A stretch of 64,000 nt of DNA from Geodermatophilus amargosae (GTDB lineage Bacteria; Actinomycetota; Actinomycetes; Mycobacteriales; Geodermatophilaceae). The stretch lies in contig NZ_FPBA01000001.1 in the NCBI RefSeq assembly GCF_900116515.1, forward strand, positions 62,001 to 126,000, written 5' to 3'. The notes under the pieces were generated by a model that was not told the origin of the DNA, searched no databases, and worked only from the letters and a program-made list of their open reading frames with translations. The translations under genes were made by a program, and so were the position numbers. Positions 10,480 to 17,227 of this stretch are shown piece by piece. The stretch's first letter is position 1; every line of letters begins with the position of its first letter.

Positions 10480-11592
10480 GTGGCCTGGACCGCGCTGTCC
10501 GGGCTGGCTCCCGTCTATCCGCTGTACGCACTGCTGTTCCTCGACACCGGGCTCTCGGCGGCGCAGGTGTCGGGCCTGTTCGCCCTGTGGTCGGTCACCG
10601 GCCTGCTGGCCGAGGTGCCCACCGGCGTGCTGGCCGACCGCTGGTCGCGCCGCGGCGCGCTGGTCCTGGCCGGCGTCCTCGAGGCCGCCGGGTTCGTCGT
10701 CTGGACGGTGGCGCCCGGGCTGCCCGGCTTCGCCGCCGGGTTCGTCGTCTGGGGCGTCGGGGGCGCGCTGGTGTCCGGCGCCGCCGAGGCGTTGGTCTAC
10801 GAGGGCCTGGCCGCCGCCGGCGCGGAGGACGCGTTCGTCCGGGTCCAGGGCGCGACGACGGCCACCGAGCTGCTCGTGCAGGTGCCCACCGCGCTGCTGG
10901 CCGGAGCGCTGGTCGAGGCCGGCGGCCACGTGCTGGTCGGGTGGGTGAGCGTGGGCGTCTGCCTGGCGGCCGCGGCGCTGGCCACCCGGTTCCCCGAGAC
11001 CGCGCCCACGGAGGGCGACGACGGGGAGAGGAGCCTGCGCTCGGCCGTGGGCGAGGCGCTGCGCCGGCCGTCGCTGCGGCTGGCCGTCGTCGCCGTCGCG
11101 CTGCTCGGCGGCCTCGACGCGCTGGAGGAGTACTTCCCGGTCATGGCGCGCGATCACGGCGTGCCGACGGAGCTCGTGCCCACCGCGGTCCTCGTCGTCG
11201 CGCTGGCGGGAGCGGCGGGCGCCGCGCTGGCCGACCGGCTGGCGCGGCTGCCGTCCCGGGCGCTGCCGGCCCTGCTGACCGTCTCCGCGGGGCTGCTGGC
11301 GGTGGGGGCGCTGGCCGGGACGGCCGTGGCGCTGGCCGCCGTCGCGCTGTCCTACGGCCTGTACCTCGCCGTGCTGGTGGTGGGGGAGGCGCGGCTGCAG
11401 GAGCAGGTGCCGGGCGCGGCGCGGGCCACCGTCACCTCGGTGGCGGGCCTGGGCATCGAGCTGGCGTCGCTGCTGGTCTTCGGCGCGTGGGCGCTCGGGT
11501 CGGCGCTCGCCGTCGCGGTGCTGTTCCTCGCCGTCGTCCCCGTCGTCGCCCTCGGCCTGTCCTCCCGGGCGAGGAGCCAGGCGCAGAGGTGA
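10480..11592 (+). CDS. MFS transporter
   Basis: 370 aa with roughly ten to twelve hydrophobic helices. The motif LLAEVPTGVLADRWSRRGAL after helix 2 is the MFS motif A (G-x-L-A-D-R-x-G-R-R). The C-terminal half repeats it weakly (GAAGAALADRLARLP). Length is a little short for MFS, and the first helix begins almost at the start, so a non-ATG codon a few residues upstream is possible; an in-frame stop at 10423 limits the extension. Substrate is unknown. Confidence 0.8.
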   Translation: MAWTALSGLAPVYPLYALLFLDTGLSAAQVSGLFALWSVTGLLAEVPTGVLADRWSRRGALVLAGVLEAAGFVVWTVAPGLPGFAAGFVVWGVGGALVSGAAEALVYEGLAAAGAEDAFVRVQGATTATELLVQVPTALLAGALVEAGGHVLVGWVSVGVCLAAAALATRFPETAPTEGDDGERSLRSAVGEALRRPSLRLAVVAVALLGGLDALEEYFPVMARDHGVPTELVPTAVLVVALAGAAGAALADRLARLPSRALPALLTVSAGLLAVGALAGTAVALAAVALSYGLYLAVLVVGEARLQEQVPGAARATVTSVAGLGIELASLLVFGAWALGSALAVAVLFLAVVPVVALGLSSRARSQAQR

Positions 11593-11721: not shown

Positions 11722-14511
11722 CTACCTCGCTGTCCGTCTCGCGATGCGGGCGGCGAAGACGCCGGCGGCGTGGCCGTTGTCGATGTTGCTGACGACGACG
11801 CCCGGCGAGGCCGAGTTGAGCATCGTCAGCAGCGCCCCGAACCCCCCGAAGGAGCCCGGCTGCCCGGTCGAGGTGGGCACCGCGACGATCGGCACGTCGG
11901 TCATCGCGCCCACCGTCGCCGCCAGCGTGGCGTCCAGGCCCGCGACCACGACGAGGCAGTCGACGTCGTCGAGCAGGGTGCGGTCGGTGAGCAGCGGCGG
12001 CAGCCGGCTGCCGCCGACGTCGTCGACCCGCACGACCTCGGTGCCGGTCACCCGCGCGACGAACGCGGCCTCCGCGGCGACCGACGCGTCGGCCGTCCCG
12101 GCGCACAGGACGCCGACCCGGCCCCGCGGCTCGGGCACGGGGCCGACGGCGGCCGACATCGCCGCGGCGTCGACGGTGGTGGACCCGTCGTGGGCGCCGG
12201 CCAGCGCGACCAGCGCGTCGGCGCTGGCCCGCACCACCAGCGCGGGCCGGTCGGGGTGCGCGGCGCGGGTCTCGCGGACCAGGGCGAGCACCTGCTCGGT
12301 GGTGCGGCCCACGCCCCAGATGACGTCGGGCTCGGCCGGCGCCGGACGGGCCGGCGCCGACGGCTTGGCCGGGTCGGGCGTGGGGGCGAGCGCCGGCTGG
12401 CCCGGGCTGCCCAGCGACAGCGGCGGGTCGGCCAACAGCGAGGCGAAGCCGCCCACCGGGTCCAGCGGCGAGGACTGCACCGGCCCGACCCGGACGGCGG
12501 CCGGCCGGGCGGCTTCCCGCCCGCCCGCGCCCTGCGCCGGGGCGTCGGCACGGGCGTCGGCCGGGGCGTCGGGCGCCCGGGTCTGGGTGACCGCCGAGAG
12601 CCGGACGACGCGGTCGCGGCCGCTGCGCTTGGCGTCGTAGAGGACGCCGTCGGCGGCGGCGAACAGCGTGCGGCGGTCGTCGCCGCGCGTGGCCGAGGCG
12701 ATGCCGACGCTGATCGTGACCGGCACGGTCACCCCGAGCGCCGCCCAGTCGTGGGCGGCGACGGCGCGGCGGATCCGCTCGAGCGCCCGCTCGGCCTGCT
12801 CGGCGGTGGTGTCGGGCAGCAGGACGACGAACTCGTCACCGGCCCACCGGCACACCTCGTCGGTGTCGCGGCACCCGGCCAGCAGCAGCTCGGCGACCGC
12901 GCGCAGCACCGCGTCGCCGCCGGGGTGGCCGACGGCGTCGTTGATGGACTTGAACCGGTCGACGTCGACGACGGCCAGCGCCGGCGTGGTGCCCGCGGTG
13001 AGCAGGCCGTCGAGCCGCGCCTCGGCGTAGCGGCGGTTGGGCAGGTGGGTGAGCGGGTCCTCGTAGGCCTGGCGGCGCAGCTGCCCGGCGGCGCGCTCGT
13101 TCTCCAGCAGGCTCTTGCGCCGGCCGAACAGCTCCACCCAGCGGGTGCGCCGCTCGTCGACCCGGTCCAGCTCGTCGGCGAGGTAGGCCTGCAGGTAGGG
13201 CAGCGCGCGGCCGGCGTCGTCGAGCTCGGCGTGCAGCGTGCACAGCTCGCGCAGCGCGGCCCGGCGCAGCCGCGGCAGGCCGTGCTCGGTGGCCAGCGCG
13301 AGTGCCTTGGCCAGCTGCTCGTCGGCGCCCCGGCCGTCGCCCTGCCGGCGCAGCGCGCGACCGAGCGCGAGCAGGGCCGAGGCCAGCAGCGCGCGGTCGC
13401 CGGCGGCGCTGGTGATCCGCACGGCGGCCCGCAGGGGGCCGGTGGCGGCGGCGTGCTCGCCCAGCCCGACCAGCGCCCAGCCGTGCACGACCTGCGCGGA
13501 CACGATGCCGTCGGCGTCGGGCGGCAGCTGGGCCAGGGCCTGCTCGGCCAGCCGGCGGCTCTCGGCGAAGTGCGGGACGGCGGCCTCGGGCTCGCCGTCG
13601 TCGAGCAGCGCCTCGCCCAGCTCCGCGCACAGTGCACCGAGGCAGGTGGCGGCGTTGGCGACGAGGACGTCGGGGTCGCCGTCGTCGGGGCCGAGCGTGC
13701 CCTGCCCGGCGGCGGCGGTGGCCGCCTCCAGTGCGCGGCGCTGGTAGTCCAGTGCCAGCGGCATGAGCTCGAGGTCGGCGAGGACACCGGCCAGCGTGCC
13801 CAGGGTGTCGACGAGCAGCGCGTCGGGCGGCAGGGCGGGGTCGAGCAGGCTGGCCGCCTCGACCGCCTCGTCCATCGCCGCGTCGATGCGGCGCGAGAGC
13901 AGCTCGATGCGGGCGTGCCGGGCCAGGCCGGCGGCCCGCTGCAGGTCGTCGTCGGCGGCGTCGAAGGCGGCCTTCGCCGAGCGCACGAGGGCGATGGCGA
14001 GGGCGGCGTGCGACGCGGACTCCGAGCGCGGGTCGCCGTCGCCGGCGTCGCGGCCGGCGGGGCCGTCGTCGGCGCGGTCGAAGAGGTCGGCGACGCCGGC
14101 GTGCAGGTCGAGCGACTCGGTCGCCTCCGGGGCGTCCAGCGGCTCGCCGACGAGGGTGAACCCGGCGACGCGAAGCCTGCGGACCAGCAGCTCGGCGCGC
14201 AGGGTGTCGGCCCAGGCGCGGCCGAGGGAGGGCTCGTCGTCGCGCGCGGCGGCCGTGGAGGCGGCGCCGGCCTCGTAGGGCCCGGCACCGTACGGCGAGG
14301 AGGGGTCGACGACCGACAGCAGCCGCTCGGCGTCGTCGAGCTGCCAGTTGGCGAGGGCGGCGGTCACCCGGTGGTGCAGGGCTCCCGGTGGCACGAGCGC
14401 ACTGTGCACGCCGTCGGGCGGGGATGCGAGCACCGGTCCGCGGGCACGCCGTGTGGCGCCGGTCGCGTCGTCCGTCGCGTCACTGGCGTCCCAGGTGCGT
14501 CCCGCGCTCAC
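11722..14511 (-). CDS. Helical-repeat GGDEF protein fused to a LarB-like domain
   Basis: 929 aa in one uninterrupted frame. Residues about 45-470 are all-helical TPR-like repeats. Residues about 483-640 form a GGDEF domain (YEDPLTHLPNRR start, RDTD inhibitory site, active site AGDEF at 557-561), expected to make c-di-GMP. A Pro/Ala-rich linker (about 645-725) leads to a LarB-like, PurE-fold domain from EPDVIWGVGRTTEQVL (727) to the end, including LCAGTADASVAAEAAF and SNIDNGHAAGVFAA. LarB carboxylates nicotinic acid adenine dinucleotide in nickel-pincer cofactor synthesis. Here the catalytic cysteine position is Ala901 and the catalytic glutamate position is Asp860, so enzymatic activity is doubtful. 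GTG start overlaps the upstream cyclase stop by 4 bp. Confidence 0.85.
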   Translation of the reverse strand: MSAGRTWDASDATDDATGATRRARGPVLASPPDGVHSALVPPGALHHRVTAALANWQLDDAERLLSVVDPSSPYGAGPYEAGAASTAAARDDEPSLGRAWADTLRAELLVRRLRVAGFTLVGEPLDAPEATESLDLHAGVADLFDRADDGPAGRDAGDGDPRSESASHAALAIALVRSAKAAFDAADDDLQRAAGLARHARIELLSRRIDAAMDEAVEAASLLDPALPPDALLVDTLGTLAGVLADLELMPLALDYQRRALEAATAAAGQGTLGPDDGDPDVLVANAATCLGALCAELGEALLDDGEPEAAVPHFAESRRLAEQALAQLPPDADGIVSAQVVHGWALVGLGEHAAATGPLRAAVRITSAAGDRALLASALLALGRALRRQGDGRGADEQLAKALALATEHGLPRLRRAALRELCTLHAELDDAGRALPYLQAYLADELDRVDERRTRWVELFGRRKSLLENERAAGQLRRQAYEDPLTHLPNRRYAEARLDGLLTAGTTPALAVVDVDRFKSINDAVGHPGGDAVLRAVAELLLAGCRDTDEVCRWAGDEFVVLLPDTTAEQAERALERIRRAVAAHDWAALGVTVPVTISVGIASATRGDDRRTLFAAADGVLYDAKRSGRDRVVRLSAVTQTRAPDAPADARADAPAQGAGGREAARPAAVRVGPVQSSPLDPVGGFASLLADPPLSLGSPGQPALAPTPDPAKPSAPARPAPAEPDVIWGVGRTTEQVLALVRETRAAHPDRPALVVRASADALVALAGAHDGSTTVDAAAMSAAVGPVPEPRGRVGVLCAGTADASVAAEAAFVARVTGTEVVRVDDVGGSRLPPLLTDRTLLDDVDCLVVVAGLDATLAATVGAMTDVPIVAVPTSTGQPGSFGGFGALLTMLNSASPGVVVSNIDNGHAAGVFAARIARRTAR

Positions 14512-16184
14512 GAGGAGGTCCCCTCGGCGGGGCCGTCCACCAGCCCGGGGGCGCGCACCCGGTTGCGCCCGCCGCGCTTGGCGGAGAACAGGTGCAGGTC
14601 GGCGGTGTCGAACAGCGATCGCCAGCCGACCGGCGCGTCGTCGTCGTCGTCGGCGGCCGGCGCGGTGGCCACCCCGATGCTGACGGTGATCGGCTCGCTC
14701 AGGGACAGGTCGCCCCAGTCGGCGTCGGCCACGGCCGCGCGCAGCCGCTCGGCGGTGGCCAGCGCCTGGGCCGGGGTGGCCGTCGGGAGGACGACGAGGA
14801 ACTCGTCGCCGGCCCAGCGGTACACCTCGTCGCCGACCCGGCTGTGCTCGCGCAGCAGCGCGGCCACCCGGCGCAGCACCTCGTCGCCGTGGGAGTGCGA
14901 GGTGTCGTCGTTGACCTCCTTGAACCGGTCGACGTCGACGACGGCCAGCGACAGCGGCTCGGCGCCCGGCCGCAGGCCGGCCAGACGGCGCTCGGCGCTG
15001 CGCCGGTTGCCCAGCCCGGTGAGCGGGTCCTCCAGCGCGTGCCGGCGCAGCACGGCGGCCTGCCGCTCGACCTCCCGCAGCCGGCTCTGGCGCACGAACA
15101 TCTCCGCCCACAGCTCCCGGCTGCGGGCGTGCGCCCTTCCGGTCTCGGCGCGGTAGGCGTCCAGCCAGTGCAGCGCCTCGGCGGGACGGCCCATGGCGGC
15201 GGTGGCCTGCCCCAGCTCGAGCAGGCACTGCCGGTAGCGGCGCCGGTCGGCGGTGGCGGCGAAGGCGCCGGCCGCGTCGACGAGCAGGTCGGCGGCCTCC
15301 TCGCCGTGCCCGCCGCCGGTGTGCGCCTGCGACAGCCGGGTGAGCAGCCGGGACAGGGCCAGGTCGGCGTAGCCGCGCAGCCACGTGCTGCCGCTGCGGC
15401 GCACCCGCCGCTGCACGCTGCGCAGCGGGCCTAGGGCGTCGTCGAGGTCGTCGTGGCAGGCCAGGGCCCAGGCCTGGACGACGTCGAGCAGGTCGAGGTC
15501 GTCGGCGTCGGGCTCGACGTCCAGCGCGCGGGCGTCGGAGGCGCAGGCCAGCGCGGTCCCGGCCAGTTCGCGCGCCCGGTCGGCCTGGCCCCGGCGGCGC
15601 AGCGTCTGGGCCAGCTCGCAGTTCTGCTGGGCGCACAGCCGCAGCAGCAGCCAGTGGTCGGCGAGGTCGGGGAGCGTGGCGGCCACCCGGTGCCCGCGCT
15701 CGGCCGAGGCGACGGCGAGCTCCTCGAGGTCGAGCGCGGTGAGGGTGAGCGAGAGCCACAGGTGCGCCTGGGCGAGGGCGCGGGAGGGCTCGCCGGCGGG
15801 CGGGTCGAGCTGCTCGGTCAGCAGGCTCGCGTCGACGGCGAGCAGCATCGCGGAGTCGGGGTGGTCGGCGGTGGCCTCGAGGTGCGCGAGGTAGGCCAGG
15901 ACCAGCGCCGTCGAGGCCGACGGCGGGCAGGAGCCGAGGGCCTCGCGGGCGGCGCCCACCCCGGCCACGGTGGCGTCCCGGTCGCCGTCGAGGAGTCCGC
16001 GCCGGGCGGCCAGCGCGTGCCGCCAGGCGGCCCAGCTGGGGTCGGCCGCCGCGTCGAGGCGGGCCTCGGCGTCGTCGAGCCCGGCCCGGAAGGCGGCGGC
16101 GTCGTCCCGGCTGCTCGCGGCCAGCAGGCGCCACAGGGCAGCGTCGAGGTCACCGTCGGTGACGGGAGCGGGGCCGGGGGTCAC
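14508..16184 (-). CDS. Helical-repeat diguanylate cyclase
   Basis: 558 aa. Residues 1-375 are helical repeats resembling TPR arrays and carry no transmembrane segment, so the protein should be cytosolic. Residues about 382-545 form a GGDEF domain: LEDPLTGLGNRR, VVDVDRFKEVND, an inhibitory RVGD five residues before the active site AGDEF at 458-462, then TVSIGVATA. AGDEF variants are active in several characterised cyclases. GTG at 16184 has GGAGGG 5 nt upstream. It is the first gene of a coupled pair; its paralogue with the LarB-like tail follows with a GTGA overlap. Confidence 0.88.
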   Translation of the reverse strand: MTPGPAPVTDGDLDAALWRLLAASSRDDAAAFRAGLDDAEARLDAAADPSWAAWRHALAARRGLLDGDRDATVAGVGAAREALGSCPPSASTALVLAYLAHLEATADHPDSAMLLAVDASLLTEQLDPPAGEPSRALAQAHLWLSLTLTALDLEELAVASAERGHRVAATLPDLADHWLLLRLCAQQNCELAQTLRRRGQADRARELAGTALACASDARALDVEPDADDLDLLDVVQAWALACHDDLDDALGPLRSVQRRVRRSGSTWLRGYADLALSRLLTRLSQAHTGGGHGEEAADLLVDAAGAFAATADRRRYRQCLLELGQATAAMGRPAEALHWLDAYRAETGRAHARSRELWAEMFVRQSRLREVERQAAVLRRHALEDPLTGLGNRRSAERRLAGLRPGAEPLSLAVVDVDRFKEVNDDTSHSHGDEVLRRVAALLREHSRVGDEVYRWAGDEFLVVLPTATPAQALATAERLRAAVADADWGDLSLSEPITVSIGVATAPAADDDDDAPVGWRSLFDTADLHLFSAKRGGRNRVRAPGLVDGPAEGTSS

Positions 16185-16291
16185 GCATCCCTCCTCGTGC
16201 GACGCCGGACGTCCGGCCACGCGGGCCGGCGGCGAGGCAGCTCCCCCCGGACGGGGACTGCGCCCCTGTCCGACCGCACTACCCTCGTCGG

Positions 16292-17227
16292 GTGCCCCAG
16301 ACGCCTCCGACGCGGTTCGCCTATCTCGGGCCCGAGGGTACCTTCGCCGAGGCCGCGCTCGGCAGCGCCGTCGCTCCCGGGGAGGGGGTGCGGCAGCCGG
16401 CGGCCAGCGTCCCGGCCGCCCTGGCGGCGGTCCGCGCCGGTGAGGTCGACGCCGCGCTGGTGCCCATGGAGAACTCGGTCGAGGGCTCGGTCCCGGCGAC
16501 GATGGACGGCCTGGCCGACGGCGACCCGCTGCTCATCACCCGCGAGGTGTTCCTTCCCGTCTCCTTCGTCCTCGCCGCCCGGCCCGGCACCCGGCCCGAG
16601 GACGTCCGCGACGTGGTGAGCCACCCGCACGCGCTCGCCCAGACCGCCCGCACGGTGGCCGAGCGGCTGCCCGGCGTGCCCGCGCTGCCCGCCTCCTCGA
16701 CGGCGGCCGCGGCCCGGGCGGTGGCCGACGGCGAGCACGACGCCGCGGTCTGCGCGCCGATCGCCGCCCAGCGCTACGGCCTGGTCCCGCTGGCCGAGGA
16801 CGTGGCCGACCACCCCGGCGCGGTGACCCGCTTCGTCCTGGTGTCCCGCCCCGGGCAGCTCCCGGCGCCGACCGGCGAGGACAAGACCTCGCTGGTCGTC
16901 GTCGTCACCGACCGCACCGGCGCGCTGCTCGACGTGCTGCGCGAGTTCGCCGTCCGCGGGATCAGCCTGACCCGCATCGAGTCCCGGCCCACCCGCGACC
17001 GGCTGTGGGTCTACTCCTTCTCGCTGGACTGCGAGGGGCACGTGGCCGAGGCGCGGGTGGGCGAGGCGCTCGCCGCGCTGCACCGGGTCTGCGAGGACGT
17101 GCGCTTCCTCGGCTCCTACCCGCGTGCCGACGGCCGCACCAGCCGGCCGGTGCCCGACGAGGCCGCCGACGCCGCCTTCGCCGACGCGCAGGAGTGGGTG
17201 ACCCGGCTCCGCGCCGGCCGGGTCTGA
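16292..17227 (+). CDS. pheA: Prephenate dehydratase
   Basis: 311 aa enzyme converting prephenate to phenylpyruvate in phenylalanine synthesis. The N-terminus FAYLGPEGTFAEAAL is the first substrate-binding segment, VPMENSVEGSVPATMDGL the second, and AVTRFVLVSR carries the catalytic Thr-Arg-Phe triad. A C-terminal ACT domain (TGALLDVLREFAVRGISLTR followed by ESRP) provides phenylalanine feedback control. Monofunctional, with no chorismate mutase domain, as usual in actinobacteria. GTG 16292. It stands between the cyclase pair (divergent) and the MMPL gene (convergent). Confidence 0.95.
   Translation: MPQTPPTRFAYLGPEGTFAEAALGSAVAPGEGVRQPAASVPAALAAVRAGEVDAALVPMENSVEGSVPATMDGLADGDPLLITREVFLPVSFVLAARPGTRPEDVRDVVSHPHALAQTARTVAERLPGVPALPASSTAAAARAVADGEHDAAVCAPIAAQRYGLVPLAEDVADHPGAVTRFVLVSRPGQLPAPTGEDKTSLVVVVTDRTGALLDVLREFAVRGISLTRIESRPTRDRLWVYSFSLDCEGHVAEARVGEALAALHRVCEDVRFLGSYPRADGRTSRPVPDEAADAAFADAQEWVTRLRAGRV

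Follow-up and report, generated by a model that had tools for sequence, protein, structure and literature searches.

LarB, the NaAD carboxylase/hydrolase of the nickel-pincer cofactor pathway, of solved structure (PDB 7mj0-7mj2, 8soq, 8stc and 8std), reportedly works via a cysteinyl intermediate, which we assume to form at Cys221. In the L. plantarum enzyme, Glu180 and Cys221, with the roles assigned to them, are taken here as the catalytic residues. The wild-type PDB chain has Ser at position 127, and the PDB also includes S127A variants as complexes, which presumably hold substrate. Positions 57, 180 and 234 are presumed, from conservation, to line the pocket. Among GGDEF cyclases, a long helix precedes the GGDEF domain in SiaD (7e6g), DgcB (6ttr) and PA3702 (3bre, presumably WspR), which were retrieved by Foldseek. 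PurE, of the AIR carboxylase superfamily, is a more distant relative; PurE enzymes are octamers.

The window, a 64-kb stretch of Geodermatophilus amargosae DNA, encodes a protein in which a GGDEF domain is fused to a LarB-like domain. It has the LarB fold at approximately 38-40% identity (Foldseek), Asp or Glu at position 180 and many of the structural positions of LarB; unlike LarB, it lacks Cys221 and Ser127, is joined to a diguanylate cyclase and is present without LarC, LarE and LarA. It resembles the SiaD, DgcB and PA3702 class in the helix before the GGDEF domain and in having both active and inhibitory sites, but differs from them in its TPR-like input region and in the pseudo-LarB that a disordered segment tethers to its C-terminal side. 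With PurE it has the superfamily fold in common, and Pfam AIRC matches above its cut-off; a strong AIRC match elsewhere in the G. amargosae genome is presumably the organism's own PurE. We place the protein among the active-type diguanylate cyclases, as one whose C-terminal domain is of a new kind, and not among the LarBs, because its LarB score falls short and Cys221, Ser127 and the company of LarC and LarE are all missing. In the open-licence PMC literature, no paper was found with both LarB and diguanylate cyclase or with both GGDEF and AIR carboxylase, and no title dealt with such a fusion or with a LarB pseudoenzyme.

Architecture of the fusion protein

The features of the locus are listed in Table 1. 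A single frame of 929 codons runs from a GTG start (14511) to a stop (11722), at the coordinates given by the first-pass annotation, and its strand is minus. In the AlphaFold model the helical region at approximately 231-440 has pLDDT mostly above 90, and a long helix (433-481) closes the TPR-like region and runs into the GGDEF domain. The domain search proposed in that annotation returned GGDEF (Pfam, 131.1 bits against a cut-off of 23.8), AIRC (PurE superfamily, residues 799-925, 36.6 bits against a cut-off of 30) and LarB (NF033503, residues 728-925, E 1.5e-45). The last match, at 155.5 bits, is below the curated cut-off of 175, as is that of the LarB domain alone (160.9 bits). Among solved structures, phmmer ranks LarB chains 8soq and 7mj0 as the best matches to the C-terminal part.

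Table 1. Features of the fusion locus; positions are those of the window.
Feature	Coordinates	Strand	Remarks
Fusion gene	11722..14511	-	TPR-like - GGDEF - linker - pseudo-LarB, 929 aa
TPR-like helical-repeat region, residues 1-470	13102..14511	-	TPR matches below Pfam cut-offs; AlphaFold helices
GGDEF domain, residues 482-634	12610..13068	-	Pfam E 4e-38
Disordered linker, residues 635-722 (~90 residues)	12346..12609	-	pLDDT <50 at 634-722
LarB fold, residues 727-929	11725..12333	-	A807 at Ser127, A901 at Cys221, Asp860 at Glu180
DGC1, upstream tandem diguanylate cyclase	14508..16220	-	stop overlaps fusion start (GTGA)
pheA (presumed; named from its sequence without family search), prephenate dehydratase	16292..17227	+	divergent; marks ancestral larC-larB / pheA locus
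MFS transporter	10480..11592	+	convergent with fusion gene

The full-length AlphaFold model, based on an alignment of 58 sequences, has a mean pLDDT of 75.3 and a pTM of 0.44, which says little on the domain arrangement; it contains the GGDEF domain and a mostly confident LarB fold at 727-928, which matches solved LarB chains with target TM of 0.80-0.87 (Foldseek). Modelled alone, the LarB part reaches a pLDDT of 84.0 and a pTM of 0.83 with one poor loop at 883-888 (pLDDT <50). No Rfam family was detected in the 64-kb window at gathering scores.

The GGDEF domain has the active-site motif RWAGDEF at 555-561 and an RDTD inhibitory site at 548-551. Both motifs are intact, as the first reading of an apparently active domain had supposed, and both are kept throughout the 85 fusions collected here: RWAGDE is invariant (85/85) and is followed by F in 82 fusions and by Y in the other 3, and the Arg and Asp of the RxxD site, five residues upstream of the motif, are present in all 85. 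By its motifs, the domain is of the active diguanylate cyclase type, and it would be expected to make c-di-GMP.

The linker is 68 to 174 residues long across the fusions, with a mean identity of 40%. A stop at residues 645-725 hidden by a sequencing error, a possibility raised at the outset, does not hold, as the frame runs uninterrupted through the linker in 85 of the 87 family genomes read at length; the in-frame fusion in these relatives also rules out a sequencing error or a one-genome oddity. A separate LarB product from an internal start was likewise rejected: an in-frame start with a Shine-Dalgarno-like motif occurs in the linker of only 14 of the 85 fusions, at scattered positions, and none of them is in the G. 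amargosae genome.

Residues of the LarB-like site

Residues were numbered after L. plantarum LarB, represented in the alignment by an S127A variant chain, and phmmer pairs Asp860 with Glu180 and Ala901 with Cys221, as had been claimed. The 85 fusions (without the out-of-frame genomes G046 and G091) were compared with 42 stand-alone LarBs, a set of 44 from which two misfiled fusion rows (L177 and L191) had been removed. Position 901 is never Cys in the fusions (A 64, S 10, T 5, G 4 and P 2), whereas Cys221 is present in every one of the 42 stand-alone LarBs, among them the L. plantarum chain, and in all 57 of the best LarBs retrieved outside the family, from the samples of the class and the phylum. 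The first-pass annotation held that both catalytic residues appear to be lacking; this is correct for Cys221, lost in 85 of 85, and incorrect for Glu180. Position 860 is D in 78 fusions, E in 6 and G in 1, and the stand-alone LarBs, all of which keep Cys221, have E in 23 and D in 19; the 57 LarBs outside the family have E in 53 and D in 4. Since Asp at 180 occurs in LarBs that retain Cys221, Asp860 is no sign of loss, and it was rejected as a lost catalytic residue. The residue lost alongside Cys221 is instead Ser127, not named earlier, which is replaced at position 807 by G (44), A (37), V (2) or P (2) and is never Ser in the fusions.

The rest of the domain is changed in a patterned manner. 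Of the positions at least 90% alike in the stand-alone LarBs, 37 are kept in at least 90% of the fusions and 17, with one gap column excluded, in fewer than 15%; a further 21 positions that vary in the stand-alone LarBs are at least 95% alike in the fusions. K57 has become Arg in 84 of 85, position 180 is Asp or Glu in 84, F234 is replaced by another ring residue in 81, and D128, T200, S201 and D231 are retained in 83 to 85. Thr126, His158, Arg159, Tyr204 and Gly205, nearly fixed in the stand-alone LarBs, are altered in most fusions, and the poorly modelled loop at 883-888 adjoins changed site residues. Newly fixed residues include A861 (85/85), R736 (84/85) and R836 (76/85), and Q884 is likewise a new residue that the fusions conserve. 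Cys852, which sits in a strand, is found in approximately 99% of the fusions and also in 21 of the 42 stand-alone LarBs. Over the 85 genomes, 58 of the 199 positions of the LarB part are at least 97% conserved. This pattern indicates a domain that is remodelled, not rotting.

Distribution, origin and the cofactor pathway

The family survey called for by the first-pass annotation comprised 112 Geodermatophilaceae genomes from 12 genera, of which 87 were read at length; 15 others were left out of the full-length reading. The fused LarB domain is matched at E 0.001 in 111 of the 112, and GGDEF and LarB lie in one open frame in 85 of the 87. In the other two, G046 (L104) and G091 (L162), LarB is out of frame with GGDEF owing to a frameshift or an assembly error. 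In G066-G074, nine draft assemblies from three genera, LarB occurs but such a cyclase does not, apart from one weak match (E 4e-4). G080 (C185:117526-118863) keeps the cyclase, with a TPR-like part 70% identical, and has no LarB domain, its sole NF033503 match being 29 bits. The LarB part is shortened in G107 and diverged in G005, G019 and G020 (59-61% identity). The domain is thus dispensable in places, namely in these five genomes and in G046 and G091. Second LarB-like matches in G001, G003, G006, G016 and G017 (32-43 bits over ~130 positions) were set aside as most likely PurE.

Every fusion found falls within the Geodermatophilaceae. The named contigs with matches are from Geodermatophilus (G. 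aquaeductus among the near relatives), Blastococcus, Modestobacter, Klenkia, Trujillonella and Goekera, all of which we take to belong to the family. A scan of the species-genome collection, which detects close relatives only, gave 75 named loci: 48 with both GGDEF and the TPR-like part, 5 truncated at the end of a contig, and 22 in which LarB stands alone with no GGDEF nearby. For the class (394 genomes) and phylum (396 genomes) samples, tblastn detected no GGDEF or TPR-like part within ~1.5 kb on each side of the best 57 loci; as a rule only 7 or 8 candidates per genome were scored in the large samples, and rarer or more distant fusions may occur elsewhere. The loci read outside the family in the order sample (397 genomes) are G117, G119, G124 and G132. 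No single place in the plasmid records covers 80% of the fusion protein. One record titled unverified Bacillus sp. AZ43 (L229), a title that is likely wrong, carries at a contig end a LarB that shares 73% identity with the LarB domain of the fusion.

The sister lineages, whose synteny was read by tblastn, retain a simpler locus. Three genomes from families elsewhere in the order (G117, G124 and G132) and four Geodermatophilaceae (G071-G074) have a larB that encodes the Cys, with larC behind it and pheA in head-to-head orientation; in G119 the same genes are ~3.4 kb apart. Fusion genomes have the order larC (where kept), LarB-GGDEF-TPR, second diguanylate cyclase and pheA. The second cyclase, DGC1, is directly upstream in all 84 fusion loci with sequence there, at a distance, judged with the starts aligned, of at most 10 bp in 72 and within 73 bp in the other 12. 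larC is at most 1 kb downstream of the fusion in 41 of 85 loci, further away in 3 and not seen in 41; it lies between the MFS transporter and the fusion gene in G053 (L083) and G107 (L102) and is absent in G. amargosae. In the LarB tree, into which 32 of the 85 fusions were entered, all 32 form one clade (SH-aLRT 100, stem 0.8; two further rows are duplicates of the same fusions), nested among Cys-containing stand-alone LarBs of the same locus. Synteny and tree show that two cyclase genes took up a place between pheA and larB, one of them being joined to larB in place. The two cyclases probably arose by duplication, because they are 36% identical over a long alignment in G. amargosae.

Of the proteins of the nickel-pincer cofactor pathway, LarC is found in 82 of the 112 family genomes, LarE above cut-off in 72, LarA in 35 and catalytic LarB, defined by more than 200 bits to NF033503, in 73. 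LarE and catalytic LarB go hand in hand: 72 genomes have the two and 39 have neither, the sole exception being G100, whose LarE match is a fragment. Four of the 39 are drafts 67-80% complete (G081, G095, G096 and G098), whose absences may reflect missing sequence; G095 has a LarB fragment at a contig end. Of the 85 fusion genomes, 52 have LarC, LarE and a separate catalytic LarB, 27 have none of the three, 5 have LarC alone, and G100 has LarB and LarC. The pathway-free 27 agree with the earlier view that the LarB-like domain without Cys221 is not tied to cofactor synthesis. That the fusions are a source of LarB activity is ruled out by the NF033503 scores and the co-occurrence of LarE with catalytic LarB. 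Two fusions without Cys221, in G093 (C1:2485195) and G090 (C82:38469), score 178.7 and 177.3 bits, above the LarB cut-off of 175.

For G. amargosae, the first-pass annotation had found neither larC nor larE in the window, and this extends to the whole assembly, which has no match to PF01969 (LarC) and none over the cut-off to TIGR00268 (LarE), with only two weak matches to the latter; LarA and catalytic LarB are also absent from the genome. A quick tree built from the cyclase part requires 10 changes of the pathway-free state, at least 8 of them being forced by well-supported branches; some are likely regains, G049, G109 and G014 having a stand-alone LarB from another clade. Our reading of the tree suggests approximately seven separate groups without the pathway. 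More generally, some Geodermatophilus and relatives (L033-L039 and L097), these three genomes among them, have a separate LarB of another clade, with Glu and Cys, adjoining larC or larE and probably acquired. Six genomes, G002, G011, G013, G015, G018 and G057 (loci L148, L147, L063, L145, L065 and L085), keep LarC without LarE over the cut-off or catalytic LarB. In all of them except G057 the frame is open and PF01969 scores 312-362 bits, against ~430 in many relatives, as if LarC were drifting or repurposed.

Possible roles of the LarB-like domain

Selection was assessed from median pairwise dN/dS. In the clade of G. amargosae, comprising nine genomes of which eight lack the pathway, it is lowest in GGDEF (0.10), followed by LarB (0.157), the TPR-like region (0.30) and the linker (0.51). 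In a trio without larC (G090, G093 and G099) the values are 0.076 for LarB and 0.86 for the linker, whose medians range from 0.51 to 1.04 by set. Two other sets without larC have LarB values of 0.31 and 0.36, and a set whose lar operon was acquired has 0.28. The dead LarB domain is still under purifying selection. The higher values in these sets, together with loss or shortening in some lineages, imply that the LarB part is not equally valuable everywhere.

We consider it fairly probable that a dead LarB was repurposed to regulate, from its tether, the active-type diguanylate cyclase to which it is fused. A cyclase with a TPR-like region, a signalling helix and a GGDEF domain captured, in place, the larB that formed a unit with larC; this LarB part lost its nucleophile-type residues Ser127 and Cys221, left cofactor synthesis and would have been kept as a tethered, non-catalytic regulatory domain. 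The retention of the LarB part after the loss of both catalysis and the cofactor pathway suggests a role as a control part. The N-terminal repeats and the long helix would control GGDEF in the usual way, and the pseudo-LarB would still bind a small ligand, with pyridine or adenine nucleotides as the likeliest candidates, and would self-associate in the manner of PurE. Ligand or assembly state would alter how closely the GGDEF domains pair and hence the c-di-GMP output. Binding without chemistry is favoured because charge at 57 and 180 and a ring at 234 are kept and two nucleophile-type residues are lost. An argument against this regulatory reading is that allosteric change passes poorly through a disordered tether.

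That the pseudo-LarB is a nucleotide sensor, as first suggested, is a working hypothesis. LarB-like binding is not assured, because positions 126, 158-159 and 204-205 have changed in most fusions, and the ligand may for the same reason not be NaAD. The more specific proposal, in which a family-wide protein uses a remodelled but conserved, nucleophile-less LarB site to report NaAD/NAD or adenylate status to c-di-GMP, is a tentative one that we would not yet expect to hold.

A ligand-free pseudo-LarB could also act as a pure scaffold, holding cyclase protomers together by PurE-type self-association and raising the local concentration of GGDEF. Many of the best-kept LarB positions are glycines and hydrophobic core, the tether is disordered and the changed pocket positions vary, all of which would suit a scaffold; however, residues 57, 180 and 234 keep their charge or ring character in 81 to 84 of the 85 fusions, and the retention of D128, T200, S201 and D231 goes beyond scaffold needs, which makes this explanation unlikely. 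It is quite improbable that the domain is still an enzyme that, without Cys221 and Ser127, acts on NaAD or some other nucleotide in an altered reaction. The acidic residue at 180, the newly fixed residues near the site and Cys852 might be read in that way, the last despite its place in a strand and its frequency in stand-alone LarBs, but LarB uses a cysteinyl intermediate, and the occurrence of A, S, T, G or P at 901 in different genomes indicates loss and not a new catalyst. Least probable of all is a decaying LarB remnant on the cyclase with no present role, since the loss in G080, the shortening in G107, the frameshifts in G046 and G091 and the raised dN/dS in some sets are outweighed by LarB values far below those of the linker in the own clade and the trio and by the many nearly invariant positions in 85 genomes.

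In annotation, such fusions can receive the name LarB from the NCBI model, whose cut-off two of them pass. Nucleotide binding by the domain, if it occurs, would make it an input to c-di-GMP that we have not found described, in bacteria of soil and rock. On the preferred reading of a repurposed regulatory domain, an enzyme has turned into an apparent signalling part, and the steps of this change are visible in living relatives: the same locus, an active ancestor, gene fusion, loss of catalytic residues and survival after the pathway vanished.
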